Assembly (NCBI GenBank): GCA_018266765.1
Contig: JAFDZU010000036.1
Coordinates: 86,240 to 137,791, forward strand
Length of the DNA: 51,552 bases
Source of the DNA: Bacteroidota bacterium
GTDB taxonomy: Bacteria > Bacteroidota > Ignavibacteria > Kapaibacteriales > UBA961
Direction of reading: 5' to 3'
Positions 1,472 through 27,665 of the stretch are shown in pieces; the stretch's first letter is position 1; each line of letters begins with the position of its first letter. Position numbers and translations under genes: made by a program. Under the pieces are notes generated by a model. The model was not told where the DNA came from, did not search any database, and saw nothing but the letters and a program-made list of their open reading frames with translations.

Positions 1472-2647
1472 CTACGAAACAAGTTCAATTGATTCTTTGA
1501 TGTACGGATCATTAACAGGAATTAAATTGTTACTTGCAAATTGTTTAGCAACGATATAAGTAAACAATCCAAAGAAAAACAACCACGCTGTAATTTCTTG
1601 ATAACCAAATATTAAAGTTTTGCTGAATACAGGAAGAACTATCCAACACAAATCAATAAAATGAGCAAGTAATAACAGACACGCCCCAGCCATCATCACT
1701 GGTAAACGGCGTTTCACATCTTGACGAAGCAGCATCAAGAACGGAACTATAAAGTGTAAGAATATTGACCCCCAACCGAATAATTCCCAACCACCTTGTA
1801 ATCTTTTTACATAGTAAATTGTTTCTTCAGGTATATTTCCATACCAAATCAAAAAGTATTGAGAAAAAGCAATATAAGTCCAAAAAATAGTGAATGCAAA
1901 CATAAACTTTCCAATATCATGGAAATGTTCAAGTGTAACATAATTCTTTAAGTAGCCACCTTTATACAGATTTATCATGTAGATACAAATCAAAGAAAGA
2001 GTTGCTACAAAATTACCTGCGAAGAAATAAACACCAAAAATTGTACTGTACCAATGCGGTTCAAGTGACATCAAAAGATCAAAAGATGCAAATGTAATAG
2101 TAAACGCATAAAGCACTACAAAAGGAGCGGCACGCTTAAGATTTTTGTATGTCGGCGAATAGTCGGTCGCAGTGTCTTGTTTCTTAGAGTTACCCACTAT
2201 AAATCGGTACATATAGTACCAAAGTCCACAGTATAATGCTAAACGTATACCAAAAAAAGTAGTATTAAGGAATGGTGCTTTACCTGATATAATCGGGTCA
2301 GAAGCAACTTCATGCACCCAATGAAACAACTCACCTTTAAAAAGATAAATAGGAATCATTCCAATAATAAGATACGGAACAAATCCTGCAAAATTCTCTG
2401 CAATCCGACGAACAGAAGTGCTCCATCCCGCTTTTACCAAGAATTGTAATGCTGAAAAAAACATTGCCGTTACAGCAATTCCTGCAAAATAGATAAAACC
2501 AATCAGATAGTCAGCCAACAATCGAGTATGGTCTGAATCAGTAGCAAATGCAACTGCTAATCCAAGAGCACCAACAACTATTGCTCCTAAAGCAACTTTC
2601 TGAAGTTTTGAAATAAATGGCGTTCCTTGTAATTGAATTGGAGTCAT
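1472..2647 (-). CDS. actF: Alternative complex III membrane subunit ActF
   Basis: Integral membrane subunit of ACIII, which oxidises menaquinol and passes electrons to c-type cytochromes in place of a bc1 complex. The 391-aa product shows ten hydrophobic segments, at about residues 15-35, 43-67, 89-103, 128-150, 173-195, 202-227, 243-269, 287-307, 313-338 and 344-370. This matches the ten-helix topology of ActF and the related ActC. No heme or Fe-S motif is present, as expected. It is the last gene of the operon, 64 bases after actE. No clear terminator is seen behind it; the next sequence is the hydrolase relic. The family call rests on length, topology and the conserved act gene order. Confidence 0.9.
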   Translation of the reverse strand: MTPIQLQGTPFISKLQKVALGAIVVGALGLAVAFATDSDHTRLLADYLIGFIYFAGIAVTAMFFSALQFLVKAGWSTSVRRIAENFAGFVPYLIIGMIPIYLFKGELFHWVHEVASDPIISGKAPFLNTTFFGIRLALYCGLWYYMYRFIVGNSKKQDTATDYSPTYKNLKRAAPFVVLYAFTITFASFDLLMSLEPHWYSTIFGVYFFAGNFVATLSLICIYMINLYKGGYLKNYVTLEHFHDIGKFMFAFTIFWTYIAFSQYFLIWYGNIPEETIYYVKRLQGGWELFGWGSIFLHFIVPFLMLLRQDVKRRLPVMMAGACLLLLAHFIDLCWIVLPVFSKTLIFGYQEITAWLFFFGLFTYIVAKQFASNNLIPVNDPYIKESIELVS

Positions 2648-2711
2648 TGTCTATCCTCAATGTTTTGGGTCTGAATTTTACTTTTTTAAATTTGTTAATA
2701 TTGATAATCAA

Positions 2712-3326
2712 CTACTTAGTGGTTTGTTTAACTTCTTGAACACCTTCAGCTTGCATTTTTCTGATATAATGAATTACAGTCCATCTATCATTCTCGGAAA
2801 GTTTATCTGCATAGCTGGGCATAATGTTTTGCCCGGAACTTATAACATGATAGATTAACCCATCACTTTTCATTCTTGTTAAATCAGCTCTAAGATTTGG
2901 CGGGTTTTGAAAGCCGCGTTTGACCACTTCCCCATTTCCTTGTCCGTCATTATTATGGCATGGAGAACACATTGTTTCAAATCGGTTTTTTCCACGAGCG
3001 AGTACAAAATCTGAAGCGGGTAAAGGATTTTTTCCATTGACTGAATCTGCTTTTTCAAAATCAGATTTATCTAAAGGATATTGAACACCTCCACGTGGGA
3101 ATGTATTAGGTAATGGGTCACGGTCAGCTTTTCTATCAGCGAAAAATGTATTACCTACCTGTGCTTTATCTTTAAATTGATTGTCCATATCATCAACCAC
3201 TTGAAGTGGTGGTTCATCGGAAAACCAAGTTTTTTCACCGGTTAAAACCAGTATAATAAAAACTGAAGCGGCAAGCCCAATAATAATTTTAATATACGGA
3301 AAACCTTTTTTCTTTTGCTCTTCCAT
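2712..3326 (-). CDS. actE: Alternative complex III monoheme cytochrome c subunit ActE
   Basis: Periplasmic monoheme cytochrome c subunit of ACIII. An N-terminal membrane anchor at about residues 12-29 follows a lysine-rich start and has no lipobox. One heme-binding motif, C120-SPC-H124, lies in the C-terminal cytochrome domain. M169 in NIMPSY is the likely distal heme ligand, and the WTVIHYIRKMQ helix near the end is typical of class I cytochromes c. Length is 204 aa. It lies 51 bases after actD and 64 before actF. In the known complex ActE lies near the electron exit, so it is a candidate donor to the downstream oxidase or to the separate lipoprotein cytochrome encoded at 15850-16395. Confidence 0.92.
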   Translation of the reverse strand: MEEQKKKGFPYIKIIIGLAASVFIILVLTGEKTWFSDEPPLQVVDDMDNQFKDKAQVGNTFFADRKADRDPLPNTFPRGGVQYPLDKSDFEKADSVNGKNPLPASDFVLARGKNRFETMCSPCHNNDGQGNGEVVKRGFQNPPNLRADLTRMKSDGLIYHVISSGQNIMPSYADKLSENDRWTVIHYIRKMQAEGVQEVKQTTK

Positions 3327-3377
3327 TGGTAATAAATCCTTTAATTTCAGATTAAGTTTTGTATTCGAATGTGCAAA

Positions 3378-3911
3378 TTATTCTTGAATTAGTCGAACAT
3401 CATCGGCACCAAGTTCAGTCATAAGTTTCTTTGTTGCTTCGATAGAAAATCGTTGGTCAGTTGCCATTATACTTACTACAAATGTATTATCTACAGCTGA
3501 CTTAAATCCTTCGTCATTTTGCAATGGCGAGTACCACTTAGGTAATCCACATAAAAACCATAATCCTAAGAAAGTAGCTATTGCTGTCAGTAGAATTGTA
3601 AGTTCAAACATCACAGGAATACCAAATTGAAATGCAAAAAGTGGTTTGCCACCAATGTTTAACTTATAGTGAACTGCACCCGTCCACCAAATAAGAGAAA
3701 TCGCATTTAAAAGACCAAAAATGCCTCCTCCGAAAGCAATATAAGGAAGAATTGTTCTTTTTACTCCCATAGCTTTGTCCAAACCATGCACGGGATATGG
3801 AGTATAAATATCAAAATCTTTATACCCTGATTCACGGATTCTATTAGCGGCTGTCATTAATAAGTTAGGGTCTTTGTAGTTTCCTAAAACTGCTATTGGC
3901 TGAGTATTCAT
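3378..3911 (-). CDS. actD: Alternative complex III subunit ActD (DUF3341)
   Basis: Small membrane subunit of ACIII, 177 aa, of the DUF3341 type. The N-terminal soluble part carries the family's typical YKDPNLLMTAANRIRESGY and DIYTPYPVHGLDKAMG stretches, about residues 12-50. Two transmembrane helices follow at about 55-75 and 98-123, then a C-terminal ferredoxin-like half ending near the stop. No redox motif is present; the role in the known complex is structural. It lies 30 bases after actC and 51 before actE, inside the act order. Confidence 0.92.
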   Translation of the reverse strand: MNTQPIAVLGNYKDPNLLMTAANRIRESGYKDFDIYTPYPVHGLDKAMGVKRTILPYIAFGGGIFGLLNAISLIWWTGAVHYKLNIGGKPLFAFQFGIPVMFELTILLTAIATFLGLWFLCGLPKWYSPLQNDEGFKSAVDNTFVVSIMATDQRFSIEATKKLMTELGADDVRLIQE

Positions 3912-3941
3912 GATAGTTCCAAAGATTCAAAAAATATTATA

Positions 3942-5378
3942 TTAATGGTTGTCATGATGTTTTGGCTGAGAACCAGGAAGAACACTCTTAATTTCTGCTA
4001 TTGCTATCATCGGTACAAATTTTGCAAATATTAAAAAGAGTGTAAAGAATATTCCTATAGTTCCTGTAAATATTGAAATCTCTACCCAAGTCGGTGAATA
4101 ATACCCCCAACTTGCAGGCAGATAATCATGATGCAATGAAGTCGAAATAATGGTAAAACGTTCAAACCACATACCAATATTTACAAAAATTGACATTACA
4201 AACATCACCGGAATGCTTCGACGCATTTTCTTGAACCAATAAATTTGAGGTGATATAACATTACAACTTACCATTGTCCAATAAGCCCAAGCATAATCAC
4301 CTGTTGCTCGATTAATAAATACTGAAGATTCATACGGATTACCACTATACCATGCCATGAAGAATTCCATTGCATACGCATATCCCACCATCATTCCTGT
4401 TGCAAGAATAATTTTATTCATGTTGTCAAGATGTTTGAGAGTTATAAAACTTTTCAAATCAACTACTTCACGAGCAATTACAAGCAAAGTCATTACCATT
4501 GCAAAACCCGAAAAAATAGCTCCTGCAACGAAGTAAGGAGGGAAAATTGTTGTGTGCCATCCCGGAAGAACCGATGTTGCAAAGTCCATTGAAACCACTG
4601 TATGAACTGATAGAACAAGTGGAGTCGAAATACCTGCTAATATCATATAGGCCACTTCGTATGTATGCCAATGGCGCACAGAACCTGTCCAACCCAAACT
4701 AAATGCTGTGTATATTTTGCTGGCAAACTTACTTTTAACATAATTACGCATTGTTGCCAAATCGGGAACTAAACCAATGTACCAAAACAGTAATGATACT
4801 GTTCCATAAGTAGATACTGCAAATACGTCCCAAACAAGTGGAGAGCGGAAGTTCACCCACATTTGCATTTGATTAGGATAGGGAGTTAGCCAATAAAATG
4901 CTAACCATGGACGACCTGTATGTAATAATGGAAATATTAATGCGCAAAGAACTGCAAATAAAGTCATGGCTTCAGCCGAACGATTTATAGCAGTACGCCA
5001 TTTTTGCCTAAATAAAAATAAAATAGCTGAAATTAATGTTCCGGCATGACCAATACCAATCCAGAACACGAAGTTGGTAATATCCCACCCCCATCCGACC
5101 GGGTTGTTCAATCCCCAAACACCAATACCGGTTGCGATGGTATATCCCATACAAAATAATCCCCAAAGTGCCATTGAGGCAAACACAAAAAGTGTAACGA
5201 GGAATTTAAGGTTTGGAGTTAAAGTTGGAATACTGGCTATTTTTTCAGTTATTTCGTGCAAAGTTGGATTGCCAAGAATCAACTGCTCACGAAATACCTC
5301 TTCATGCGCCGAAGGCATAAGAGAATTTGTTCCATTGACACTCGATTTGGTTTCGTTCATTGTATCGTTAACGTTCAT
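3942..5378 (-). CDS. actC: Alternative complex III quinol-binding membrane subunit ActC (NrfD/PsrC family)
   Basis: Polytopic membrane subunit of the NrfD/PsrC family, 478 aa with about ten transmembrane segments. In ACIII this subunit is known to form the menaquinol oxidation site next to the Fe-S domain of ActB. Family stretches include [20 protein letters not shown] near residue 95 and [20 protein letters not shown] near residue 258. The C-terminus is histidine-rich (PKHHDNH), a trait shared with several other membrane subunits of this operon. It is 45 bases after actB and 30 before actD. Confidence 0.95.
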
Positions 5379-5423
5379 TTCTTTTTCCTAAAGTTTGATA
5401 CCAAACTATCCTGTTAATTGAAA

Positions 5424-8405
5424 TTATGCTTTTTCTGCTTTATTACGAACTTTGCCATGATATGTAATTGAAGGACGAACATTGAGTTCTTCCAATACTC
5501 TAAATTTTCTATCTTCTGTATTTTTAGAAAGATAAACTTTGCTTGTTTTATCATTCATATCACCAAAAATTATTGCTCCGGCAGGACATGCTTGCTGACA
5601 TGCTGTAATAATCTCGCCATCGAGCACTCGAGCGCGACCATGATCTTTTGCGTGAAACTTACCTTCGTTAATACGCTGAACACAGAAAGTACATTTTTCC
5701 ATGATTCCACGCATTCTGACTGTTACATCTGGGTTAAACACTAAATCTAGCGGTGTTTTATCGTTTTTGTGCCAATTAAGGAAATTAAAACGACGAACCT
5801 TGTAAGGACAATTGTTTAAACAATAACGAGTTCCTACGCATCTGTTGTACGTCATCTCATTAAGACCTTCAGGGCTATGAGTAGTAGCGGCAACAGGACA
5901 GACATTCTCACAAGGAGCATTTTCACAATGCTGACACAGCATCGGTTGGAATAATGTTTCTACATTTCCTTTGTCATCTTTAGAATAATATCTGTCAAGA
6001 CGAATCCAGTGCATTTCACGACCGTTTATAACTTCTTGTTTGCCGACGGAAGGAATATTATTCTCAACTTGACATGCTGTAGTACAAGCACTACAACCAA
6101 CACATGCTGACATGTCAATCGTCATTCCCCACCGATGACCTTTATAAGTATAATCATCAACAATGCTCAAATCATTTGAAATTAAATGATGCTCATGTTC
6201 ATGATTATCAGATACAAATTCTGCCAGAGTAACATCTCGAACTATGTCACGACCCTCTATTGAATTATGTCCTTGTGTTGTTGCGATAATTTCATGCTTA
6301 CCAGTTTTTTCAACTGTAATTTCTATATACCCAAGTGATTCTCCCAAACCAAGTAATTTATAGACGTTCGCTCCAACATTTTTAAGAATTGTTCCACCTT
6401 GAGTACGACCGTAACCTGTTGTGATAGAGACAACTCCATCGGCCATACCATCTTGAATAAACGTTGGAACTTCAATTGAACCATTATTTGTTGAAATCCG
6501 AATAACATCTCCTTGTTTTACACCCCACTCCCCTGCTGTTTTTGCGCTAACTGCGGCAATATTTCCCCAAGTAACTTTAGTAATTGGATCAGGGAGTTCT
6601 TGCAACCAGCCATTATTTGCTAAATCACCATTATTAACAGTAAGTGACAATGCAATATGTCCAATTGTTTTAGACATTGTAGCTTTAGATGCCTTGGATA
6701 CTAATTCAGCTGCTCCTGCTTGATTTACATTCAAACTCCCTACTTGAGGAATTGAAGCATTTTTAACAATTCCATCTTGTAAAGAATTATCCCATTCTTT
6801 TTGATTTGGAAGTATTGATTGTAGACGTGTTCGTATATAATCAAAATAAGTAGCTGCTGTAGTAAATAGTTCAGGATTAAGTGCTTTGCTGATTTGTATT
6901 AGAGCATCTTGTATTGAAATAGAAGATTCATTCAACGGAGCAATTATTGGTTGTTGAATTGAATACGTTCCTTCAAAACCTACAGCATCACCCCATGACT
7001 CAAGAAAATGAGTTGTTGGCATAATTACAGAACAAATCGAACATGTTTCATCTTCATATTGTGAAAGTGAAATTCTTTTAGGAACACCACTTACTAATGA
7101 TTTCATATCACGGTCACCAAAATACTCTGTATTTGTATCTGCAAAAATTAATACACCAACTGATTTAGATTTTAATTCAGAACGTAAATTTTCAATTGCA
7201 GGTGTTTTTCTATTGCTATTTGGTAAAGTGTGAGCAATATCAAGTACTTTTCCCGTGCCAACTGAACCGAGAACAAGATTTATACACAAAGCAATTGCAT
7301 TTGCTTTTGTTGATAAGTGAGCACCTGCTACTACAATACCTTTATCCCCTGCTTTAGTAAGCATTTCTGCTATTTTCGATGCTGAGGGATGAGTTGCCGA
7401 TGAAACTGCTGAAGCAACATTAGCTCCAACAGAGCTACTTCCTTTAGAAGCTATAACTTCTTTCAAAATTGCTGATAATATTTGTTCGTATTCTGACGGT
7501 TGTACAATAATTCTATGATCTGAATTTGCTCCTGTTAAGGACATCATTGCCTCAACAGTAAAAAGCATATTCATTACAGGATTTTTCTTAGTAGGTTTAC
7601 GCTTCGCTGAAAAATTTCGGATATGATACACAGAGTTTTTATCTGTACCTAATAAGTCTGCATCAACAGAAACAATTACGTCTGCTTTTGAGAGGTCAGG
7701 AACTATTTCACTATCAATTCCTAAAATTGAATTATTTGCAGAAGCTGTTCCATCACTGATAGTTGCGGGAACAGTTACAAATTTAAGAGAAGGTATTTTA
7801 AGTTCAATTTCATTTATAAGTGCAGTATAGGAAGGAGAACAATGCTCATCAATTAATATACGAACAGTTTTTCCGTCGGCAATAGCTGACTTTATAGCAT
7901 CCGAGATTGTTATAATTCCATTAGTTACCGATGAATCCCCACCGTGCAATCGCGGACGACGTAATACTCTATCAGGGTCATAAAGAGATAATAGAGTCGC
8001 TTGAATTCTTGAAGAAGAAACACCCATCGAAATAGGATGACGGTCATTTCCATCTAATTTAATTGGACGACCTTCGACAGTTTTCACAAGCAAGCCAAAC
8101 GCTGCATTTCTATTCTGATAGACAGTAGTATAGTAATTTGGTATTCCGGGAGTTCTGTATTCTACAGCTTTAACTGTTGGTACAAGTTTATGATCCGGAC
8201 GGCGGCAAGCGGCTGCACCAACAGCCATTGTAGCTGAAAGCAATGCCATAAATGTCCGACGACTGACTGCCGACTCAAAAACTGGCGGTTTGTCATAATC
8301 AGCAGAAAATTCTTGTTGTTCGTTTTGCAACTCATTCGGCGAGAGTAGAAATTCTTCCGAAGTTTTCCAAAAGCGTTTTTTACTTGAAAATGTAGAATTT
8401 GACAT
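5424..8405 (-). CDS. actB: Alternative complex III Fe-S subunit ActB (fused molybdopterin-like and ferredoxin-like domains)
   Basis: Large peripheral electron-transfer subunit of ACIII, 993 aa. A Tat-like signal (SRRTFMALLSATMAVGAAAC) starts near residue 48. About residues 70-720 resemble a molybdopterin oxidoreductase that in known ActB proteins carries no cofactor. A histidine-rich linker (H735-H740) leads to a ferredoxin-like domain with four cysteine clusters: C768/771/774/778, C824/827/832/836, C856/862/866 and C905/908/936/940. The third cluster has three cysteines in this arrangement, and known ActB carries three [4Fe-4S] and one [3Fe-4S] centre. Which cluster is [3Fe-4S] here is not assigned. 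It is 50 bases after actA and 45 before actC. Confidence 0.95.
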   Translation of the reverse strand: MSNSTFSSKKRFWKTSEEFLLSPNELQNEQQEFSADYDKPPVFESAVSRRTFMALLSATMAVGAAACRRPDHKLVPTVKAVEYRTPGIPNYYTTVYQNRNAAFGLLVKTVEGRPIKLDGNDRHPISMGVSSSRIQATLLSLYDPDRVLRRPRLHGGDSSVTNGIITISDAIKSAIADGKTVRILIDEHCSPSYTALINEIELKIPSLKFVTVPATISDGTASANNSILGIDSEIVPDLSKADVIVSVDADLLGTDKNSVYHIRNFSAKRKPTKKNPVMNMLFTVEAMMSLTGANSDHRIIVQPSEYEQILSAILKEVIASKGSSSVGANVASAVSSATHPSASKIAEMLTKAGDKGIVVAGAHLSTKANAIALCINLVLGSVGTGKVLDIAHTLPNSNRKTPAIENLRSELKSKSVGVLIFADTNTEYFGDRDMKSLVSGVPKRISLSQYEDETCSICSVIMPTTHFLESWGDAVGFEGTYSIQQPIIAPLNESSISIQDALIQISKALNPELFTTAATYFDYIRTRLQSILPNQKEWDNSLQDGIVKNASIPQVGSLNVNQAGAAELVSKASKATMSKTIGHIALSLTVNNGDLANNGWLQELPDPITKVTWGNIAAVSAKTAGEWGVKQGDVIRISTNNGSIEVPTFIQDGMADGVVSITTGYGRTQGGTILKNVGANVYKLLGLGESLGYIEITVEKTGKHEIIATTQGHNSIEGRDIVRDVTLAEFVSDNHEHEHHLISNDLSIVDDYTYKGHRWGMTIDMSACVGCSACTTACQVENNIPSVGKQEVINGREMHWIRLDRYYSKDDKGNVETLFQPMLCQHCENAPCENVCPVAATTHSPEGLNEMTYNRCVGTRYCLNNCPYKVRRFNFLNWHKNDKTPLDLVFNPDVTVRMRGIMEKCTFCVQRINEGKFHAKDHGRARVLDGEIITACQQACPAGAIIFGDMNDKTSKVYLSKNTEDRKFRVLEELNVRPSITYHGKVRNKAEKA

Positions 8406-8455
8406 TCTTATATCTCGTGAAAGTTAGACGTTTTTTTTGTCGTTTGTTAAGAAAA

Positions 8456-9184
8456 TTAATGATGGCATGACGAACAATTTTCAGGACCATACCCGGGATG
8501 TTTTGGAGTAGGAATTCCTTCGACTTCTTGTTTTGGAATTTCACTCATAAATGCACCAAACTGAGGATGTGTCATTGGTTCTACTTTAGCAAGTACAGCT
8601 TTTGCTGTAGAATCAAAATAACTATTAGCTTTAATTCCTGTAAAAATTCCGGAAATAGGTCTTGCAGGAATAATATGAGCTTCAGGATTACGATGGCAAT
8701 CCAAACAGAATCCCATATTCATTGGTTTAAATTGAGAAACAACCCCCATTGTTTCTACTTTACCATGACAAGATTCACAATCTATTTGAGAACGAATATG
8801 TCGGCTATGATCAAAATGTACATAATCCGGTAAAGCATGTATCCGCTTCCACTCAATTGGTGTATTGTTTTCATAGCTATCACGTACCATTTTGAGTTTT
8901 GGGCTTTCAGTTTTGATAGCAATATGACAATTCATACAAGTACTCGTCGAAGGAACTGGAGAATGAGCTGATTTTTCAACTGAAGTATGACAATACATAC
9001 ACTTCACTCCCATATCACCTGCATGGAGTTTATGTGAAAACGGGACCGGCTGAACGGGACGATAACCAACATCCGTAACCCGATTATGAAGACCAAAATA
9101 GCCAATCAAGAAGCAAACACCGGCAATACTCAGTACAAGTAGCGATATTTTCTTGATTTTTTTGTCTATTTCTTGAGAAAACAT
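8456..9184 (-). CDS. actA: Alternative complex III pentaheme cytochrome c subunit ActA
   Basis: Multiheme cytochrome c subunit of ACIII, 242 aa. An N-terminal transmembrane anchor at about residues 12-30 precedes a periplasmic domain with five CxxCH motifs, starting at C62, C83, C136, C160 and C237. Five hemes match ActA of characterised complexes. The last motif lies within the final six residues, so the protein ends in CHH. An AAGG ribosome-binding site lies about 8 bases before the ATG at 9184. It is 37 bases after the small CxxC protein gene and 50 before actB. Electrons pass from the ActB Fe-S centres through these hemes to ActE. Confidence 0.95.
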   Translation of the reverse strand: MFSQEIDKKIKKISLLVLSIAGVCFLIGYFGLHNRVTDVGYRPVQPVPFSHKLHAGDMGVKCMYCHTSVEKSAHSPVPSTSTCMNCHIAIKTESPKLKMVRDSYENNTPIEWKRIHALPDYVHFDHSRHIRSQIDCESCHGKVETMGVVSQFKPMNMGFCLDCHRNPEAHIIPARPISGIFTGIKANSYFDSTAKAVLAKVEPMTHPQFGAFMSEIPKQEVEGIPTPKHPGYGPENCSSCHH

Positions 9185-10450: not shown

Positions 10451-11071
10451 TTAATGATGTGAAGGAAATATAAGATATAAAATCGGGAATAAAAATATCC
10501 ACACTAAATCCACAAAGTGCCAGTAAAGTCCAAGAGTTTCTAATTTTACAGGTTTGTTGTATCCTTGTTTTGTAAAGGATTTTGAAAGCATATATATCAT
10601 TGGTATTAACCCTAATATAACGTGCAACGCGTGAAATCCGGTCATTGTAAAATAAAAAGCAAAGAATACATTCGACCAAGGAAATATTCCATGTGGAAAC
10701 ACAGGATCTACGTGGTTAAATTTTGATGTATATTCGATTGTTTTTACAATTAAAAATATAAACCCACAAACGATCGTAAGCCCTAGAAATAATTGAAAGT
10801 TTTTCTTGTTTCCACGTTGCAAATTCAATATTGAGAGTGCCATAGTAAGAGAACTGCCTATAAGAACTGCAGTATTTAATAAAGCAAGCCATTTATTTAA
10901 TTCTGCGGCAGAATGAGAGAACACTTCAAGATTTGAATTTCGTAGCACTATAAAAGCACCAAAAAAACCACTGAAAAACATAATTTCAGATGCAAGAAAT
11001 ATCCACATTGCTAATTTTCCGTGTGGTACTCCGCTTACCGGCTCGTGTGCTAATGAAAGACCTGCTGACAT
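10451..11071 (-). CDS. coxC: Cytochrome c oxidase subunit III
   Basis: A 206-aa membrane protein with five transmembrane helices, the short prokaryotic form of subunit III (mitochondrial forms have seven). The family stretch MTGFHALHVILGLI lies around residues 139-152, and YWHFVDLVWIFLFPILYLIF closes the protein before a SHH tail. An AAGG ribosome-binding site precedes the ATG. It is 54 bases after ctaB and 20 before coxD. Subunit III holds lipid and supports stable proton uptake in subunit I. Confidence 0.93.
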   Translation of the reverse strand: MSAGLSLAHEPVSGVPHGKLAMWIFLASEIMFFSGFFGAFIVLRNSNLEVFSHSAAELNKWLALLNTAVLIGSSLTMALSILNLQRGNKKNFQLFLGLTIVCGFIFLIVKTIEYTSKFNHVDPVFPHGIFPWSNVFFAFYFTMTGFHALHVILGLIPMIYMLSKSFTKQGYNKPVKLETLGLYWHFVDLVWIFLFPILYLIFPSHH

Positions 11072-11125
11072 ATAATTATACCTTGTATAAATCTATGAAT
11101 ATTCAATAATTATAAATACGTTTAC

Positions 11126-12013
11126 TTAAAGTTTATTTAAAAACATAAGTATTATTAACCCTGTAAGGAAAAAATACGATGATAATAAAGTTGCTCTAGC
11201 ATTATCATGTGTTCTATCCAATCTAAATTTCAATGCAAACCCGATAAAAATCAAATTCAATACTATTGCACCAATCGCATATACAATTCCAACAACTCCG
11301 ATTTGCCACAATGCTAATGATACCGGAAGCAACAATAAGCAATATATTAAAGTTTCAGTACTTACCCTTTTCCCCGAATCGTCAACTACCACAGTCATTA
11401 TAAAACCACCTCTTTCATAGTCTTTTTTGTACATCCAAGACAAAGAAAGAAAATGAGGCAATTGCCAAATAAACATTATACCGAAAAGAACTATTGCAGG
11501 AGCTTCTATTGAATTTTTATATGCTGTCCACCCTCCCAACATTGGCAAAGCCCCCGGTATTGCTCCAACAAACAACGACAAAACACTTTTTCTTTTTAAT
11601 GGAGTGTAAATTACTACATAAGAAACCCATGTTGCGATTGCAATTAACAAAGTAAGATAATTTACAAAGAACAGACAAACTGCACCAAAAACTGACAACA
11701 CTATTCCATACAAAAGACCGCTTCCTGCTGAAATATTACCAGACGGTAACGCTCTATTCATAGTCCTTTTCATCAATTTGTCAATATCACGTTCAATATA
11801 ATTATTCAGAACGCAACTACCGGCACAAATTAACGTTGATCCTGCTATAGCAAGAAATAATCGGTAAAAATGAGAAAGAACGCTAAAATATTCTAATGAT
11901 GATTCCGGAATTGCTAAATAATATCCCGTTGAAGTTGTCAAAACTACCATTCGGGTAATTCCGGGTTTTGTTAGATTATAAAATGACGATAATTTTTGAT
12001 AAACTGAGTTCAT
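11126..12013 (-). CDS. ctaB: Protoheme IX farnesyltransferase (heme O synthase)
   Basis: UbiA-superfamily membrane prenyltransferase that adds the farnesyl group to heme B, giving heme O, the first step to heme A. The product is 295 aa with about nine helices. The first aspartate-rich motif, NNYIERDIDKLMKRTMNRAL, begins near residue 70. The second conserved loop reads YKKDYERGGF, around residues 195-205. The gene is embedded in the oxidase operon between ctaA and coxC (gaps of 40 and 54 bases), so cofactor synthesis is made together with the enzyme. Confidence 0.95.
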   Translation of the reverse strand: MNSVYQKLSSFYNLTKPGITRMVVLTTSTGYYLAIPESSLEYFSVLSHFYRLFLAIAGSTLICAGSCVLNNYIERDIDKLMKRTMNRALPSGNISAGSGLLYGIVLSVFGAVCLFFVNYLTLLIAIATWVSYVVIYTPLKRKSVLSLFVGAIPGALPMLGGWTAYKNSIEAPAIVLFGIMFIWQLPHFLSLSWMYKKDYERGGFIMTVVVDDSGKRVSTETLIYCLLLLPVSLALWQIGVVGIVYAIGAIVLNLIFIGFALKFRLDRTHDNARATLLSSYFFLTGLIILMFLNKL

Positions 12014-12053
12014 AGTTTGAATTAAGGTAGCACGGAAAAAGGACTACCTAAAA

Positions 12054-13031
12054 TTAAATTTGAGAACTAACAGTAAATAATTTCTCGTTTTTTACCTGCT
12101 CAACCTCAAAATTTCTAATTGATAAAATAAATGTAACTGCATTTGCAATAAGGAGCAAAGAACCAACTGCCACATGTGCAGTATTCGGTATAACATCTCT
12201 AACTGTTAATATTATCAAGGCACCCAGAGTTATTTGAACTATAATAAGAATCGTAGCAGAAGCCGATGATAAACGTAACATTGCCAATATACTTCCGCCT
12301 CGATAAACTTTTATATATTGTACAATAATAAGTACACTTAAAATCAATGCACCAACTCTATGACAGTAATGAATAACTACTTGATAATTATAAAGCGAAA
12401 AATCAGGAATTATCTTACCGTATGCAAGTGGAAAATCAGGAATTGCCATACCACTATACGTATGTCTTGTGAGTGCGCCGAGGAATATCTGAATAAATGT
12501 AAATATAAATGTACTACCAAATAAAAATTTATTGTTAAATGTAATCATATTATTGTGTTTAGTAGCTATTTCTAACCACCATCGAGAAGTCATTATAGAT
12601 AACACAACAGTAAAAATTAAGAATATTTGTGCAAGCATCCCATGAGAAGCCGATACAGCTGTTGGCAGTTGCATTCTGACTGTCAAACCACCTAAAATTC
12701 CTTGTAAACAAACAGCAAGCAGAGCAAATGAAGCGACTTTTCTAAGATAAGTACTACCTTTTTTTTTCTCTAAAATCCATACCCAAATAAATTCAATTAT
12801 CATTAAAAAACCAACAAATGAAGCGAACAATCTGTGACCATGTTCATATTTTATTCCACCTGTCCATTTACTAATAGGATATGTAAACATATTCTGACCA
12901 TACGTTGTAGGCCAGTCAGGAACCGAAAGTCCGGATCCTGTACTGTGTACCAATCCACCCAGAGTTATTAATATCAAAGTACAAAACGTCAAAAAAATAC
13001 TAAACCGATGAAGCTGTCTATAAGGGTACAT
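12054..13031 (-). CDS. ctaA: Heme A synthase (CtaA/COX15)
   Basis: Eight-helix membrane enzyme that converts heme O to heme A. The product is 325 aa, and both four-helix halves carry paired histidines: EHGHR (H64, H66) and ASHGM in the first half, IHYCHR and NTAHVAVG in the second. The extracytoplasmic loop GSGLSVPDWPTTYG is repeated in diverged form as SGMAIPDFPLAYG. It does not carry the cysteine pair seen in some Gram-positive forms. It is 14 bases after coxA. Together with ctaB it predicts an a-type heme oxidase. Confidence 0.95.
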   Translation of the reverse strand: MYPYRQLHRFSIFLTFCTLILITLGGLVHSTGSGLSVPDWPTTYGQNMFTYPISKWTGGIKYEHGHRLFASFVGFLMIIEFIWVWILEKKKGSTYLRKVASFALLAVCLQGILGGLTVRMQLPTAVSASHGMLAQIFLIFTVVLSIMTSRWWLEIATKHNNMITFNNKFLFGSTFIFTFIQIFLGALTRHTYSGMAIPDFPLAYGKIIPDFSLYNYQVVIHYCHRVGALILSVLIIVQYIKVYRGGSILAMLRLSSASATILIIVQITLGALIILTVRDVIPNTAHVAVGSLLLIANAVTFILSIRNFEVEQVKNEKLFTVSSQI

Positions 13032-13045
13032 TACAACGTAATTCG

Positions 13046-14875
13046 TTAGTGTCCACCATGACTTAGAGATGAAACCTGACTTTTATTCTCATCACCAACT
13101 ACTTCAGGTGCTTCCCATTGTGGCCAATAATCTAATTTTCTATCAGGATGCGAATATTCATACGGTCCGCGATATACTGTAATATCTTTATCAAAATTTC
13201 CATGACCTGGTTTAGCAGGTGCTGCCCAATCCAATGTGTTAGCTCTCCATGGATTACGTGGAGCATTTCTACCATATTTGAGCGACCAAAGAATATTAAA
13301 TATGAGTATCAATTGTGATGCACCTAGTATAAAAGCTGAAATCGTTATAAATTGATTCATTGGTTGAAAATGCTTGAGAAAATCATAAACATATGGGTCA
13401 TAGACTCTTCTCATGTGACCTCCAACGCCTAAAATATGCATTGGATAAAAAGTCAAGTTAAAAAATGCAAATGACCAATAAAAGTGTTTTCGTCCCCAAG
13501 ATTCATTTAACATTTTTCCAAACATTTTAGGAAACCAATAATAAATCCCTGCGAATATTCCAAACAACGATCCGCCAAAAAGAACATAATGAATATGAGC
13601 AACAATGAAATAAGTATCGTGAATATAAATATCAACTGGAGCTGAAGCCATAAATATTCCACTTAAACCACCAATAACAAAAGTTGCTATGAATGCTAAA
13701 GCATTCAAATTAGCTGTGGCAAATTTAATGTTTCCTCTCCATATAGTACCAAGCCAATTAAAAATCTTAATTGCAGACGGTACTGCTATCACTATCGTAG
13801 AAAGCATAAATGTAGTGCCCAACAGTGGATTCATTCCTGATTGGAACATGTGATGCCCCCAAACAATAAATCCAAGGAATGCAATTCCCATAATAGCAAA
13901 TATCATGGCTTTATATCCAAATATTGGCTTTCTTGAAAAAGTTGAAAGTACATCTGATACTATTCCCATCGTTGGGAGAATCATAATATATACTGCCGGA
14001 TGAGAATAGAACCAAAAAAGATGTTGCCACAGTATTGGCTGCCCACCACCTGAATACAAAGCACCTTTTGCATGAACTAAATGACTAGGCACAAAGAAAC
14101 TGGTATGAAGAAATTGATCCATGAATTGCATCGAAATAGCAGCTGCAAGCACAGGAGTTCCCAAGGTAATAAGTATTGCAGTAATAAACAAAGCCCAAAC
14201 TGTTAAAGGCATACGGAACATTGTCATTCCTTTTGCTCTTTTATTCAATATTGTCGTTATATAATTTACAGCTCCCATAATCGAGGAAAAACCTACTAAA
14301 AACATACCGACCAACCAAAGAGTTTGACCTTTATCTGCTAATGCTGCCAGTGTAGGATAACTAGTCCATCCAGCAGCAGCCGAACCACCTTCTACAAAAA
14401 AACCAGCACATACCAACATACCTGCAGGAGGAACAAGCCAAAATGAATACATATTCAGTTTTGGCAGTGCCATATCATCAGTACCAATCATTAATGGAAT
14501 ACACTGATTTCCAAAAGCACCAACTGCAAGTGGAATAATGACCAAAAATATCATTATTGTGCCATGCATAGAGAGTAACTGAGCATAAAAGTTAGGTTGA
14601 ATTGCACCACCTGCCACCAACGTATCAGGAAGAAACTTACCAATAAGTGGTATTGCTTCTCCAGGATATGCAAGTTGCCAACGAATCAACATAGCCATAA
14701 ATCCACCGACCAATAAGAAAAATAACGCAACAAATAAAAATTGTCGAGCAATTACTTTGTGATCAGTCGAAAAAATATACTTCTGTACAAAAGATAATTC
14801 GTGGTGATCATGAGAATGGTCATGATCATGAGAATGATTCGTTGTTTCGTGAAGAGAAATCGTTGCCGTATCCAT
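13046..14875 (-). CDS. coxA: Cytochrome c oxidase subunit I, type A2 heme-copper oxidase
   Basis: Catalytic subunit that reduces oxygen at the heme a3-CuB site, 609 aa. Ligands visible: H104 and H429 for the low-spin heme, H427 for the high-spin heme, and H292, H341 and H342 for CuB. Y296 in HPAVY is the cross-linked tyrosine. The D-channel glutamate of the A1 type is replaced: the sequence reads Y290-S291-HPAVY, the YS signature of type A2. K323 in GYKAM fits the K-channel lysine. The N-terminus is histidine-rich (residues 14-25) and the C-terminus ends SHGGH. It is 50 bases after coxB and 14 before ctaA. Confidence 0.97.
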   Translation of the reverse strand: MDTATISLHETTNHSHDHDHSHDHHELSFVQKYIFSTDHKVIARQFLFVALFFLLVGGFMAMLIRWQLAYPGEAIPLIGKFLPDTLVAGGAIQPNFYAQLLSMHGTIMIFLVIIPLAVGAFGNQCIPLMIGTDDMALPKLNMYSFWLVPPAGMLVCAGFFVEGGSAAAGWTSYPTLAALADKGQTLWLVGMFLVGFSSIMGAVNYITTILNKRAKGMTMFRMPLTVWALFITAILITLGTPVLAAAISMQFMDQFLHTSFFVPSHLVHAKGALYSGGGQPILWQHLFWFYSHPAVYIMILPTMGIVSDVLSTFSRKPIFGYKAMIFAIMGIAFLGFIVWGHHMFQSGMNPLLGTTFMLSTIVIAVPSAIKIFNWLGTIWRGNIKFATANLNALAFIATFVIGGLSGIFMASAPVDIYIHDTYFIVAHIHYVLFGGSLFGIFAGIYYWFPKMFGKMLNESWGRKHFYWSFAFFNLTFYPMHILGVGGHMRRVYDPYVYDFLKHFQPMNQFITISAFILGASQLILIFNILWSLKYGRNAPRNPWRANTLDWAAPAKPGHGNFDKDITVYRGPYEYSHPDRKLDYWPQWEAPEVVGDENKSQVSSLSHGGH

Positions 14876-14925
14876 GTGATATTATCCCTATAAAGATGTT
14901 TCTTTGTTTTACGTATGAGAAATAC

Positions 14926-15753
14926 TTAATGATGTGATTCTTTTGCCGGTTCTTCAACTGTTGGAGTTGGTAAAGCCGGAGGATTTGCTAACAGATTTGC
15001 TTTAATTGCACTATATTTTTCGTCAAGCCATTTATCATATTCTACTTCAGATTGCATAAAAACTTCTCCTCGCATAGAATAATGTCCGCTTCCACAAAGT
15101 TCTGCACAAGCAAGCTCATATTTTCCAGATTTAAATCCGTTAAACCAAATTTTTATCCATTGTCCGGGTAGAGCATCTTGTTTAACACGAAAGTTTGGAA
15201 GAAAGAAACTATGAATTACATCCATTGTAGATAAATTTACGACTACGTTCTTATTGATTGGAAGATGAATTTGATTCATTGTTATTAAATCATCAAATCC
15301 AGCTGGGTCGTTCTTATCTATTCCAAAAGGATTACTTGGTGTCATCTGTGATCGATCTTTTTTACCGAATACTCCGTCGGGACCAGGATAGCGAATATTC
15401 CACCCAAATTGATATGCCATAACTTCAACTGATACATCAGGATGTGGAACACGCCATTCAGATTTGGTTCGAGTCCACATGTCTTCGCTCCACAAACCTA
15501 TCAAAATAAAAACAATAGAAGGAAGTAATGTCCAAGTAAATTCCAAAGCATTGCTACCATGGAAGTGATATCCTTTGCGGTTTGGGTTAAAGCGATATTT
15601 GATGATAAATGCAATCAATAAACCATAGGTTAGGAAAAAGATAACAACCGAAAACCAGTAAATAACTGCAAACATATCATCTAATTGCTTACTATAGGTA
15701 CTTACTCCTTCAGGAAAGAATGTAAGCATATCTTTATAAAGCCACTCAAGCAT
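14926..15753 (-). CDS. coxB: Cytochrome c oxidase subunit II with CuA site
   Basis: Electron-entry subunit of the oxidase, 275 aa. Two transmembrane helices (about 28-52 and 72-90) precede a periplasmic cupredoxin domain. The binuclear CuA ligands are complete: H181, C216, E218, C220, H224 and M227 in CAELCGSGHYSM. No cytochrome c domain is fused at the C-terminus, which ends ESHH, so electrons must come from a separate cytochrome c or directly from ACIII. An AAAGGT ribosome-binding site precedes the ATG. It follows the cytochrome c lipoprotein gene after 96 bases. Confidence 0.96.
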   Translation of the reverse strand: MLEWLYKDMLTFFPEGVSTYSKQLDDMFAVIYWFSVVIFFLTYGLLIAFIIKYRFNPNRKGYHFHGSNALEFTWTLLPSIVFILIGLWSEDMWTRTKSEWRVPHPDVSVEVMAYQFGWNIRYPGPDGVFGKKDRSQMTPSNPFGIDKNDPAGFDDLITMNQIHLPINKNVVVNLSTMDVIHSFFLPNFRVKQDALPGQWIKIWFNGFKSGKYELACAELCGSGHYSMRGEVFMQSEVEYDKWLDEKYSAIKANLLANPPALPTPTVEEPAKESHH

Positions 15754-15849
15754 AGTAATTACCTTTTAAACTATAGTATTTGAAGTATATAGTAATGTAT
15801 TTGAAATTGATTGATAATAAATAAAAAAAATAGCCGATTGATTCAAACA

Positions 15850-16395
15850 TCACATCGGCGATTGCAATTCACTTTCATCCCACCCTTTCATTCGGGAAGC
15901 TGTTTTTTCACGGACTGCTTTGACTTCATCAGGAGTAACTGCTGGTGCGCTATTACCCCAATTTGACCGAACATAAGTAAGTACGTCTGCTATTTCTTGG
16001 TCAGTCATGGAATCTTTCCAAGGAGCCATTAATCCATTGTACTCTTTTCCCCCACGTACTATTTTACCTTTAAATCCATGTAGAACAATACGAATTGGTC
16101 GAGTAGATTCGCCTGTTGCAAATTCAGAACCAGCCAGAGGCGGATACGTTCCGGGAAGCCCTTTCCCATTTCCTTGGTGACATGTAGCACATATTTTACT
16201 GAAGACTGCCGCACCTGGACCTCCGCTTGTAGCTGTACCACCTGCTTCTACTTGTTTTTTGGCATCAGGATCAACAAAAACAGGATCATCCCCAAGATGA
16301 ACAAAAAAACCCTTTACATTACATCCGGCTATAAATAATATACTAATGAAGGAGAGAGAGAGAATACTTCTAGGAGAGAGTAAAAATTTCATCAT
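15850..16395 (-). CDS. Monoheme cytochrome c lipoprotein
   Basis: A 181-aa periplasmic cytochrome c. The N-terminus is a lipoprotein signal ending at a lipobox (LFIAGC, C25). A low-complexity glycine/threonine/alanine stretch at about 51-63 precedes a class I cytochrome domain with one heme motif, C69-ATC-H73. A distal methionine candidate is M103 in LMAPWKD. Two adjacent ATG codons could start it. It is the first gene of the oxidase-ACIII operon. A lipid-tethered cytochrome encoded here is a good candidate shuttle between ActE and CuA, since CoxB has no heme domain of its own. That role is inferred from context. Confidence 0.9.
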   Translation of the reverse strand: MMKFLLSPRSILSLSFISILFIAGCNVKGFFVHLGDDPVFVDPDAKKQVEAGGTATSGGPGAAVFSKICATCHQGNGKGLPGTYPPLAGSEFATGESTRPIRIVLHGFKGKIVRGGKEYNGLMAPWKDSMTDQEIADVLTYVRSNWGNSAPAVTPDEVKAVREKTASRMKGWDESELQSPM

Positions 16396-23657: not shown

Positions 23658-24026
23658 TTAGTGTTGCGAATGTAATGCAACTTTTCCACCCTCGGTGTCT
23701 AAAAATACTGCTATGGATCCAATTTCCGCTGTAATTTGCATTTTGGGAATGAGTATTTTTCCACCATTTGGTTCTACTCTTGATAATATATCTGATAAAT
23801 CATCACCGGCATTGAGATAAACCACAGCTCCATCAGAACTTGGCGTATATCCGTCACCAAATATCAATGCACCACCAACTCCCTTATCTTCTTGAGGAAA
23901 AAACGCCATTTTAGAACCATTCATTTCTGAACAATACAACTGTGTTTCCAGAATTGCTCCATAAAATTTTACCGCACGGTCAAAATCAGCGACCGGTATT
24001 TCAAACCAATTCAAAGCATTTTTCAT
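23658..24026 (-). CDS. VOC family (glyoxalase/dioxygenase fold) protein
   Basis: A 122-aa cytosolic protein with a single vicinal-oxygen-chelate domain: NWFEIPVADFDRAVKFYGAI at the start, FFPQEDKGVGGALIFGDGY in the middle and IAVFLDTEGGKVALHSQ at the end. One copy means two chains or paired beta-alpha motifs complete the site. The substrate cannot be predicted. It lies downstream of a WYL regulator on the same strand with 142 bases between them, an arrangement that suggests control by that regulator. Confidence 0.88.
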   Translation of the reverse strand: MKNALNWFEIPVADFDRAVKFYGAILETQLYCSEMNGSKMAFFPQEDKGVGGALIFGDGYTPSSDGAVVYLNAGDDLSDILSRVEPNGGKILIPKMQITAEIGSIAVFLDTEGGKVALHSQH

Positions 24027-24168: not shown

Positions 24169-25119
24169 CTATTTTTCATTTAATTCTGCTACTTCGCGAG
24201 CGGTGCGGGCTAGTATAGTTCGAAGTTCCGGTGGGTGGAGTACGGTTACATTCTTGCCAAATGATAATGTCCAGCGGGCTATCCATTCGAGATATGGTAC
24301 TAGAAATGTCATTTCCATACCTGATTCACTTTGATTTTCTTCTACTAAACCGTAATAATATTTAGAAGTAGCAAAACGAGCATACGAATATGGGAACAGC
24401 AAACGAACTTCTACAGGGTTTTCCATTTGAAGCTCTCTTCGCATAAATTTTTTGACTGAGAAATTATTTCTTTTTTCAAATATATCACCTTGTTCATAAA
24501 TAGTTTTAATTCTATCTGCTCTAAAATCTCTATAATCTTTGCGAAGTCGGCAATATCCTACAAGATGCCAGTGCTCACTGTAATAAACTAATCCTAACGG
24601 TTCAACCTCTCTAACCGTTGTTTTATCATTAGATTGTGCATAATATTCTAAATGAAGTATTTTTCTGTGGACAATTGAACGTTGAATTAAACTTAATACG
24701 TTTCCATTCATTTCATCATGAAGCCACGGTGAACGAGCTTGTACTGCTACAGATTCTTGTAAACGCTCCATATATTCTTTTTTTTCTCGAGGGAGAACCG
24801 AGCTTATCTTCATAAGTGCTGATATAGTATGTTTTTGGTGAGTTATGTCTGTAGTTTGTTTCAAAAATTCACCACCAAGAAAAATAGCACTTGCTTCTTC
24901 TTCTGTAAACATCACAGGTGGCAAAAGATATCCTTGTGCAAGTGAATATCCGACACCTGTTTCTGCGGCTATTGGGATACCTGCTTCTTCTAATGAACGT
25001 AAATCACGGTAAATTGTACGAACACTTACACCAAAAAAGCTTGCAATATCTTCAGCTTTACTTATTTTTTTACTTTGTAGATGTAAAATAATACCTAAGT
25101 ATCTTGTTAATTTATTCAT
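24169..25119 (-). CDS. WYL-domain transcriptional regulator (YafY-like)
   Basis: DNA-binding regulator of 316 aa. An N-terminal helix-turn-helix of the HTH_11 type (KAEDIASFFGVSVRTIYRDL, about residues 21-40) is followed by a wing (VGYSLAQGYLLPP). The WYL ligand-sensing domain is at about 140-215, with LGLVYYSEHWHLVGYCRLR and RDFRADRI. A WCX-type C-terminal extension runs to the end. It is divergent from the esterase gene and upstream of the VOC gene. Likely targets are itself and the VOC gene. The ligand is unknown. Confidence 0.92.
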   Translation of the reverse strand: MNKLTRYLGIILHLQSKKISKAEDIASFFGVSVRTIYRDLRSLEEAGIPIAAETGVGYSLAQGYLLPPVMFTEEEASAIFLGGEFLKQTTDITHQKHTISALMKISSVLPREKKEYMERLQESVAVQARSPWLHDEMNGNVLSLIQRSIVHRKILHLEYYAQSNDKTTVREVEPLGLVYYSEHWHLVGYCRLRKDYRDFRADRIKTIYEQGDIFEKRNNFSVKKFMRRELQMENPVEVRLLFPYSYARFATSKYYYGLVEENQSESGMEMTFLVPYLEWIARWTLSFGKNVTVLHPPELRTILARTAREVAELNEK

Positions 25120-25240
25120 TTTTGGTTTTAATCAAAATGCAATAACAGCTTTAATTATTTTCACAGTTAATTCTTCTAATATTTTTGTAATTTTGTATTT
25201 AGAAATTACATTGCTTACACATTATTTAATTATTTAAAAA

Positions 25241-26389
25241 GTGACTATACACCAAGAACATATAGACTCTCTGCTAAAGCTGTTAGGTACACATGATCCC
25301 GAACATAAGAAAAAAATTGCAGATGAATTTTGGAAAAACATAACGACGACTTCCACTTCCCCACTCCCAATCACTCTCAAGGATAGAGCTTATTTCTTAT
25401 ATAAAGGAAATGCTGAAAAAGTTATGTTAGTTGGAGATTGGACATATTGGCAACCTGCAGTAATACTTCAAAAAATTGAACATACAGATTTATTCTATGG
25501 AATTCAAGAGTTTCATCCTACTGCACGACTTCAATATAAATTGATTGTAGATGGTAATTGGATTCTTGACCCGCTTAACAAACATTCATCTATAGAAGGA
25601 TTTGGGCAAAATTCTGAATTTTGGATGCCGGAATATCACGATGAATCATGGCTTCAACCTACTTCATCTGTTGTTCATCGAGGCAATATAAAACGCTTTG
25701 AATTCAAAAGCAAATTACTTGGTGAAAAAAGAGAAATATTTTTATACACTCCAGTTTATAAGAACGAAAAAGGATTTTCATTACCATTGTTAGTAGTCCA
25801 TGATGGAGCAGAAGCTATCCAAATTGGTAAATTTCATCAAATTTTAGATAATCTACAATCAGCCGGAAAAATTCCACCGTGCGCAGCTCTATTTATAACA
25901 CCTAAAGATAGAATCGGTGAATACGCTTTAAATGCATCTTATCCTGAATTTTGTATTAATGAGGCACTTACAGAAGCATTATCTATATGGAAAAAATGGG
26001 GTGTACCTATTTCAGATGAGTCTCCAAAACGAAGTATAACCGGTGCTTCACTCGGAGGACTACTTGCAACCAAAACTTCGCTGCAATTTCCTAAACAAAT
26101 TGGAGTATGTATAGCACAATCTCCTTCTTATTGGTGGAATCAAGCTGAAATATTCCATTCGCCTTTTCTAAAAAATGCATCTAAAATTGAATTTCATTTA
26201 CAAACAGGAACAATTTGCGATGCACAGAAAATGACTGAATCCATGTTTCATAGATTAAAACATCTCGGAGCAACTGTTATGTATCAAGAATTTCACCAAA
26301 GCCACACGTGGGGCAATTGGCGAACAAATCTTGCTTCAGCACTTCAATCGTGGCTTTCTCCTATATCAATTCCAAATCATATTCATTAA
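25241..26389 (+). CDS. Esterase (enterochelin esterase-like) with N-terminal glycogen-binding-like domain
   Basis: A 382-aa protein starting at GTG (25241), with no signal peptide. About residues 48-130 form a CBM48/AMPK-like E-set domain: AYFLYKGNAEKVMLVGDWTY and QYKLIVDGNWILDPLNKH. About 150-380 is an alpha/beta hydrolase of the esterase D/Fes type. The nucleophile is S270 in GASLGG; likely partners are D327 and H355 in QSHTWGNW. In Fes-like enzymes this layout cleaves esters of siderophores or related small molecules, but the substrate here is unknown. It is 21 bases before an ATP-grasp gene, so the two are probably one transcription unit. Confidence 0.87.
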   Translation: MTIHQEHIDSLLKLLGTHDPEHKKKIADEFWKNITTTSTSPLPITLKDRAYFLYKGNAEKVMLVGDWTYWQPAVILQKIEHTDLFYGIQEFHPTARLQYKLIVDGNWILDPLNKHSSIEGFGQNSEFWMPEYHDESWLQPTSSVVHRGNIKRFEFKSKLLGEKREIFLYTPVYKNEKGFSLPLLVVHDGAEAIQIGKFHQILDNLQSAGKIPPCAALFITPKDRIGEYALNASYPEFCINEALTEALSIWKKWGVPISDESPKRSITGASLGGLLATKTSLQFPKQIGVCIAQSPSYWWNQAEIFHSPFLKNASKIEFHLQTGTICDAQKMTESMFHRLKHLGATVMYQEFHQSHTWGNWRTNLASALQSWLSPISIPNHIH

Positions 26390-26410
26390 TAATTATAAAG
26401 AGGTTTCACA

Positions 26411-27592
26411 ATGGAATCAAAAAAAACTGTTTTATGTATCGTCGGAGCTTTGTTTGGACGTCCTTTTTTGCTTGAAGCAAAACGAATGGGATGGAATGTT
26501 CATTTACTAACAGAAGAAAGATATTTGAAAGAAGCTTGGCCAAGAGATCAAATTGATCAAGTGTATGCTGTCCCTGATTTATTTGATGAAAAAGTAGTTC
26601 GTAATGTGGTATGCTATCTTTCAAGAGTTGTTAAGTTTGATAAAATAATAGGTTTGGGAGAATTTGATATTGAAGTAGCCGCTTCAATACGAGAGCATAC
26701 TCGTATCGCAGGAATGGGCGAAACTACTTCTCGCTATTTCCGAGATAAATTGGCAATGAGAATGAAAGCAAAAGAAGATGGTATTTTGATTCCGGAATTT
26801 GTCAGGATTCTCAATCACGCTGAAGTAAAAGAATTTATGGATACAGTTCCTGCTCCTTGGGTTTTAAAACCAAGAATGGGCGCATCTGCCTCTAAAGTTA
26901 CAAAAATGTTCCACCCACAAGAAGTTTGGAACGAAATTGAAAAACTTGGTGACAAACAATCCAGTTACTTATTAGAACGGTATGTTGCCGGTGATGTATT
27001 TCACGTAGATTCATTAGTAAACGATTCTAAAGTAGTATTTGCCTCTTGTTCTAAATATGGCATTCCTATGCTTGATTTGACAACAACAGGAGGAATTTTT
27101 ACAACAAGAATGATAAAACGAGGAAGTGCTGACGAAAAAGCTCTTCAGAAAATTAACAAAGATATTACCGCAAGTTTCGGAATGGTAAGAGGAACGATGC
27201 ATAATGAATACATCAAGAATAAAGATGATGGTAAATTCTATTTCCTCGAAGCAAGTGCTCGAATTGGTGGTGCAAGAATTCCTGATGTAGTTTTTCGTTC
27301 TACAGGGCTTTGCCTGTGGCATGAATGGGCAAAAATTGAGTTGTTGCCACCCGGTGAATATAAACTTCCTAACTTTGATAAATTATATGGTGGTGGTATA
27401 TTTACTCTTGCTCGCCAAGACGAACCTGATACATCTGTCTATAACGACCCCGAAGTCGCTTGGGTTCAAATAAAGAAAAATTACGCTGGATTAATATTAA
27501 AATCTGAGAATCCGGTTAGAATAGAAGAATTATTAATGAATTATTACCCACGGTTTGTTCAAGATTTCATGGCTCATGTGCCAATGAAGTAA
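26411..27592 (+). CDS. ATP-grasp superfamily enzyme of unknown substrate
   Basis: A cytosolic protein of 393 aa. A preATP-grasp Rossmann-like part spans about residues 5-100. The ATP-grasp core has K153 in PWVLKPRMGASASKV, hinge residues in SSYLLERYVAGDVFHVDSLV and metal ligands around E280 in FYFLEASARIGG. It resembles the carbamoyl-phosphate-synthase-like/carboxylate-amine ligase group, which joins a carboxylate to an amine or thiol through an acyl-phosphate. An AAAGAGG ribosome-binding site precedes the ATG. Its only partner is the upstream esterase; a strong terminator follows. Neither gene is part of a recognisable peptide, purine or siderophore cluster. Confidence 0.85.
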   Translation: MESKKTVLCIVGALFGRPFLLEAKRMGWNVHLLTEERYLKEAWPRDQIDQVYAVPDLFDEKVVRNVVCYLSRVVKFDKIIGLGEFDIEVAASIREHTRIAGMGETTSRYFRDKLAMRMKAKEDGILIPEFVRILNHAEVKEFMDTVPAPWVLKPRMGASASKVTKMFHPQEVWNEIEKLGDKQSSYLLERYVAGDVFHVDSLVNDSKVVFASCSKYGIPMLDLTTTGGIFTTRMIKRGSADEKALQKINKDITASFGMVRGTMHNEYIKNKDDGKFYFLEASARIGGARIPDVVFRSTGLCLWHEWAKIELLPPGEYKLPNFDKLYGGGIFTLARQDEPDTSVYNDPEVAWVQIKKNYAGLILKSENPVRIEELLMNYYPRFVQDFMAHVPMK

Positions 27593-27618: not shown

Positions 27619-27665
27619 GACCTGATTGACTTATTTATTGTCAATCAGGTCTCTTTTTGTTTTTC
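27619..27665 (+). terminator. Strong intrinsic terminator after the ATP-grasp gene
   Basis: A perfect 12-bp stem (GACCTGATTGAC at 27619-27630 paired with 27640-27651) closes a 9-base loop and is followed by TCTTTTTGTTTTTCC. It ends the esterase/ATP-grasp unit before mfd. Confidence 0.93.

Follow-up and report, generated by a model that had tools for sequence, protein, structure and literature searches.

A conserved gene pair for a Fes-like esterase and a RizA-like ATP-grasp ligase in Kapaibacteriales

The esterase-ligase locus

The window, by which we mean the whole stretch of 51,552 nucleotides that was analysed (C36:86240-137791 of a 3.71-Mb genome), carries an esterase gene and an ATP-grasp ligase gene on the same strand with a spacer of 21 bp (Table 1), and our ORF calls confirmed the coordinates and spacing given by a first-pass annotation of this DNA. 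The gaps around and within the pair measure 121, 21 and 103 bp, and the GTG start of the esterase aligns with a GTG in the congener G313. Upstream of the pair, TAATTTTG conforms to TAnnTTTG, the Bacteroidota -7 promoter consensus, and judging from this motif it is the probable promoter of both genes. Downstream, the terminator noted earlier proved sound: its perfect 12-bp stem (-20.1 kcal/mol) lies 9 SD below shuffled sequences (z -9.05) and is retained in G313, where one A-U pair is replaced by G.U, while a simple scanner had missed it because the loop limit of that scanner is 8. The dN/dS of the esterase between congeners was 0.03-0.05, and that of the ligase was 0.017 for G313/G314, the only computable pair, with ligase dS saturated for comparisons against the window sequence.

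Genes for a WYL-domain regulator, which is divergent from the pair and may control it, and for a glyoxalase-like protein lie between lptD and the pair in the window and throughout its genus; both are absent at this place in G006, where the pair directly follows lptD. The window also holds a full respiratory block (by eye). The earlier statement that the two genes have no other partners applies within the window but not among relatives, where one genus has glgA immediately upstream.

Table 1. Features of the locus and of related loci (positions refer to the window unless a locus is named)
Feature	Position	Strand	Description
Respiratory genes	1472-9184 and 10451-16395	-	Alternative complex III-type and cytochrome oxidase genes
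Glyoxalase-like protein	23658-24026	-
WYL-domain regulator	24169-25119	-	Divergent from the pair
Candidate promoter element TAATTTTG	25188-25195	+	Matches TAnnTTTG; kept in congener G313
Esterase gene	25241-26389	+	382 aa, GTG start; cytosolic, Fes-like, with CBM48/AMPK1_CBM-like domain
CBM48-like domain	25388-25624	+	W70, K100, W107 and putatively N124, corresponding to AMPK-beta W100, K126, W133 and N150
Alpha/beta-hydrolase esterase domain PF00756	25709-26344	+	Triad S270 (codon 26048-26050), D327, H355
ATP-grasp ligase gene	26411-27592	+	393 aa, RizA-like
Intrinsic terminator	27619-27651	+	Stem 27619-27630/27640-27651, loop 9 nt, then T-rich tract
glgA-esterase-ligase loci	L151:10803-12308 and L152		G034 and G014; genes on same strand
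Second, truncated ligase-family member	L180:5436-6419		G313
Six-gene run	L124:922-7197		Bryobacteraceae
GCS2 protein	L184:7705-8955		Genome of the window (G000), contig C43

Domains, folds and catalytic residues of the two proteins

The esterase matched PF00756 (E 2.6e-11) and AMPK1_CBM PF16561 (E 2e-7), both above cut-off, and its Ser-Asp-His triad is intact and invariant across orthologues, which bears out the initial description of an esterase with a CBM48-like domain. An AlphaFold model made from ten orthologues (pLDDT 87) had Fes (PDB 2b20, 3c8d, 3mga) as its best full-length fold match (TM 0.65-0.70), followed from rank 5 by CBM48-CE1 esterases. The likeness to Fes extends to an N-terminal beta-sandwich preceding the alpha/beta-hydrolase domain, a cytosolic location and the catalytic Ser/His; by contrast, identity to Fes is ~20%, the esterase falls below the family cut-off and the genome is without NRPS siderophore genes. 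With the CBM48-CE1 feruloyl/acetyl xylan esterases (8bbp, 6rzn, 7b5v, 6ne9) it shares a CBM48 followed by CE1, the GxSxG motif and the HTWxNWR region, but those are secreted enzymes of xylan breakdown, and their tested CBM48 domains do not bind starch (PMC8040265). Paired orthologues whose starts are clear showed no signal peptide, either by eye or in a simple hydropathy check, although many class homologues at 30-37% identity do carry one, and no PUL genes were seen around the pair or in the neighbourhoods of relatives; we rejected a secreted plant-wall esterase on these grounds.

The ligase matched the Pfam family ATP-grasp_4 (E 2.9e-7, above cut-off). Its best PDB match by sequence was RizA (phmmer E 5e-23, profile 5e-31), and Foldseek searches with the predicted model (pLDDT 88) placed RizA and BL00235 at ranks 1-3 with TM values of 0.74-0.77 (RizA E 8e-30, TM 0.76). 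RizA of Bacillus subtilis (4wd3), BL00235 (3vot) and BacD/YwfE (3vmm) share with the ligase the ATP-grasp fold over its whole length, the ATP/Mg residues and E-x-[SAG]-x-R-x-G-G, the E-x-[SAG]-x-R motif being common to the ligase, RizA and BL00235. All of the ATP/Mg-binding Lys, Lys, Glu, Glu and Glu residues and the substrate Arg of L-amino acid ligases are present (K113, K153, E189, E266, E280 and R284, aligned with RizA and identical in 111/111 family sequences). Such ligases form an acyl phosphate and then an amide bond, RizA yielding Arg-X dipeptides (PMC9321006). The protein encoded here is thus probably an amide-forming ATP-grasp enzyme of the L-amino acid ligase type, for which family membership points to the type of reaction, and the earlier proposal of ATP-dependent amide formation fits the nearest relative found by both sequence and fold.

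The resemblance to RizA has limits: identity is ~20% and the acceptor-pocket loop differs, T81, K83 and S84 of RizA corresponding to G83, F85 and D86 by our reading of the alignment. Residue 83 is D in 95/97 other family members and G in the clade of the pair (14/14) and in two others, so this clade may use other substrates than the clustered relatives do, and the clade-specific change offers a residue at which substrate choice could be tested. Our literature searches turned up no studied member of this ligase branch. G313 carries a second, truncated member of the ligase family (47% identity over residues 3-191).

Conservation of the pair and its counterparts in other phyla

The first-pass annotation had named rare co-occurrence as grounds for discarding the pair; instead, co-occurrence was the rule. 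In our order sample (123 genomes) the close ATP-grasp clade occurs in 18 genomes, all of which encode the esterase, adjacent in 17 of them. Conversely, the full esterase orthologues of the order all fall within genomes bearing the ligase family (22/22; hypergeometric 3e-19, uncorrected for kinship). In the class sample (245 genomes) an esterase at 44% identity or more was present in 14 genomes, together with the ligase in 14/14 and adjacent to it in 11. Exceptions were G316, in which we found no ligase and a fragment of the esterase at the end of a contig; the f5 family, whose ligase is more distant (45%) and is accompanied in four genomes by an unlinked esterase; and G148, where the two genes are unlinked. 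Beyond the order, one genus (G014, G034) has the pair as well. Since flanking genes differ between families, the pair has been retained through genome rearrangement. Esterase and ligase are a genuine conserved functional unit, and because they have remained together throughout the order and have comparable neighbours in other phyla, both very likely act in a single small metabolic pathway.

RizA-like ligases are widespread among uncultured phyla. In the ligase tree a clade (SH-aLRT 99) unites the proteins of the order with those of G014/G034 and corresponds almost exactly to the esterase-paired set, with two Cyanobacteria MAG sequences as neighbours. We found 20 PF00756-type esterases in 767 kb of sequence flanking ligase relatives versus 1.4 expected from whole-genome density (~14-fold), and 12 versus 1.3 when Chloroflexota were left out; p-values for this enrichment are indicative only, as the loci are mutually related and were chosen by similarity. 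These esterases belong to other subfamilies and occur in Acidobacteriota, Chloroflexota, Thermomicrobiota, Armatimonadota and Myxococcota, and the ligases linked to them sit at several separate places in the tree. In four cases the ligase has, directly upstream, an esterase of a different subfamily that overlaps it or lies within 135 bp. On the other hand, 63 of the 79 contig loci of ligase relatives outside the order have no such esterase in the sampled flank, and when nine genomes from outside the class that encode ligase relatives were searched for the CBM48 esterase, only distant homologues emerged. Frequent companions of the relatives are a GCS2 carboxylate-amine ligase, RimK-like and circularly permuted ATP-grasps and peptidases M29 and S8, with an M14 peptidase and an SDR in Ignavibacteria (GC-rich contigs were analysed by profile searches of six-frame translations).

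The label "orphan" therefore suits the ligase locally but not in other phyla, where its relatives recur with esterases, carboxylate-amine ligases and peptidases; likewise, the earlier remark that the pair could not be matched to a known system needs qualifying, as its ligase belongs to this broad RizA-like family. No description of the pair was found in the literature searched, a scope that did not include the general survey by Iyer et al. 2009 (reference 23 of PMC8939145) of the neighbourhoods of amidoligases, peptidases and related enzymes. The Acidobacteriota and Chloroflexota neighbourhoods (such as L124 and L088) resemble the pair in placing the same ATP-grasp family near PF00756 esterases, and differ from it in having GCS2, RimK-like and circularly permuted ATP-grasps and M29/S8 peptidases. 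The window's pair consists of two genes only, with a different esterase subfamily (the one with CBM48), and GCS2, extra ATP-grasps and peptidases are absent around it. In view of the recurrent ligase-esterase linkage and these companions, the pair looks like a minimal, compact form of a broader association of amide ligases and esterases. The repeated association of the ligase family with more than one esterase subfamily suggests that an ester step belongs to its chemistry in general, and the compact version narrows the search for a product to one ester and one amide bond.

Four Chloroflexota loci (L073, L088, L107, L126) hold a cluster of a RizA-like ATP-grasp, a subtilase S8, a Fes-like esterase and RimK-like and circularly permuted ATP-grasps. 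The Bryobacteraceae run consists of genes for an esterase, a RimK-like ATP-grasp, GCS2, an M29-like peptidase, a 393-aa protein with no Pfam or NCBIfam match and a RizA-like ATP-grasp. The one GCS2 protein in the window's genome, of the same subfamily and 62% identical to the GCS2 clustered in Acidobacteriota, is encoded on a different contig, unlinked to the pair and beside two-component and efflux genes.

Proposed chemistry and competing explanations

We hypothesize, with moderate confidence, that the pair is a two-gene metabolic module in which RizA/BacD-type ligation and an esterase act on the same small molecule. Using ATP, the ligase would phosphorylate an amino acid or comparable small acid at its carboxylate and then join the acyl phosphate so formed to an amine, which yields a dipeptide or amide, and the cytosolic Fes-like serine esterase would hydrolyse an ester on the same molecule, most likely freeing the carboxylate used by the ligase or trimming the ligase product, while the CBM48-like domain might hold a glycosyl or other carrier part near the active site. 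The reaction types of both enzymes are well supported by family membership; in which order the reactions run, that the substrate is a small molecule and what the CBM does are our inferences. The module is argued for by the pairing, the rearranged surroundings, the RizA and Fes folds, the invariant catalytic residues and the recurrent ligase-esterase linkage, and we counted against it the low identity to RizA, the many outside loci without an esterase, the unlinked genes of G148 and f5, and G83.

Could the unit instead be linked to glycogen, with the CBM48 docking the esterase on intracellular alpha-glucan to remove ester-linked acyl or aminoacyl groups and the ligase recycling the acid? AMPK-beta binds glycogen through W100, K126, W133 and N150 (PMC9788615; see also PMC4339375). 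W70, K100 and W107 of the esterase align with the three former residues and N124, which lies outside the printed alignment, would be equivalent to Asn150; all four are invariant in all 14 orthologues. The CBM48 domains of characterised CE1 esterases, by contrast, do not bind starch (PMC8040265), and the Trp/Lys/Trp trio is not kept by 8bbp in the printed alignment. The lack of a signal peptide fits an intracellular role as well, and in G034 and G014 glgA (PF08323, E 2e-77) lies directly upstream of the pair on the same strand with a gap of ~3 bp. By contrast, most secreted class homologues retain the same four residues, which alone do not, therefore, show intracellular glycogen binding, and the glgA linkage was seen in one genus only. 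Since glgA is near universal (236/245 genomes), its co-occurrence has no power to test a link to glycogen. We know of no aminoacyl-glycogen. Thus, we regard this explanation as unlikely, keeping a glucan link, and with it the sugar hint of the first-pass annotation, as a candidate because of the canonical alpha-glucan-binding residues and the one genus with upstream glgA; that a new intracellular system of alpha-glucan-docked esterase and amino-acid ligase decorates glycogen or a glucan-linked metabolite, or recycles acyl or aminoacyl groups from either, strikes us as improbable.

ATP-grasp ligases of other clades add amino acids to proteins or peptides, and peptidases S8, M29 and M14 are encoded close to relatives of this ligase, so that the ligase might tag a protein or ribosomal peptide with an amino acid that the esterase removes, unless the latter acts on a precursor. 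We consider this distinctly unlikely, as the ligase has the fold and motif of dipeptide ligases, the gaps at the pair leave no space for a precursor peptide gene and neither protein has a match in PADLOC or PHROGs. We rejected a graspetide cluster for the absence of a precursor peptide gene beside the ligase, and a defence or phage origin for the lack of PADLOC and PHROGs matches.

The first-pass annotation had also entertained a siderophore-like substrate, which fared poorly. An esterase that opens an imported tri-ester siderophore as Fes does, with the ligase incidental or recycling the monomer, would agree with Fes being the best fold match over both domains and with NF007758 being the best NCBIfam match, but the latter scores 89.3 bits against an equivalog cut-off of 222 for enterochelin esterase, no NRPS condensation domain was detected in the genome (controls positive) and inspection by eye of the ORFs near the pair revealed no siderophore receptor or genes. 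Given the missing condensation domain we rejected siderophore synthesis, and the siderophore idea as a whole is weakened; we regard siderophore use, also of foreign siderophores, as improbable. Finally, it is very unlikely that two unrelated housekeeping genes merely share a transcript in one lineage: the order's pairs could stem from one ancestral joining, consistent with a ligase clade that matches the esterase-paired set, but the pair survives rearrangement, is common to a genus outside the order and is paralleled in other phyla by pairings with other esterase subfamilies.
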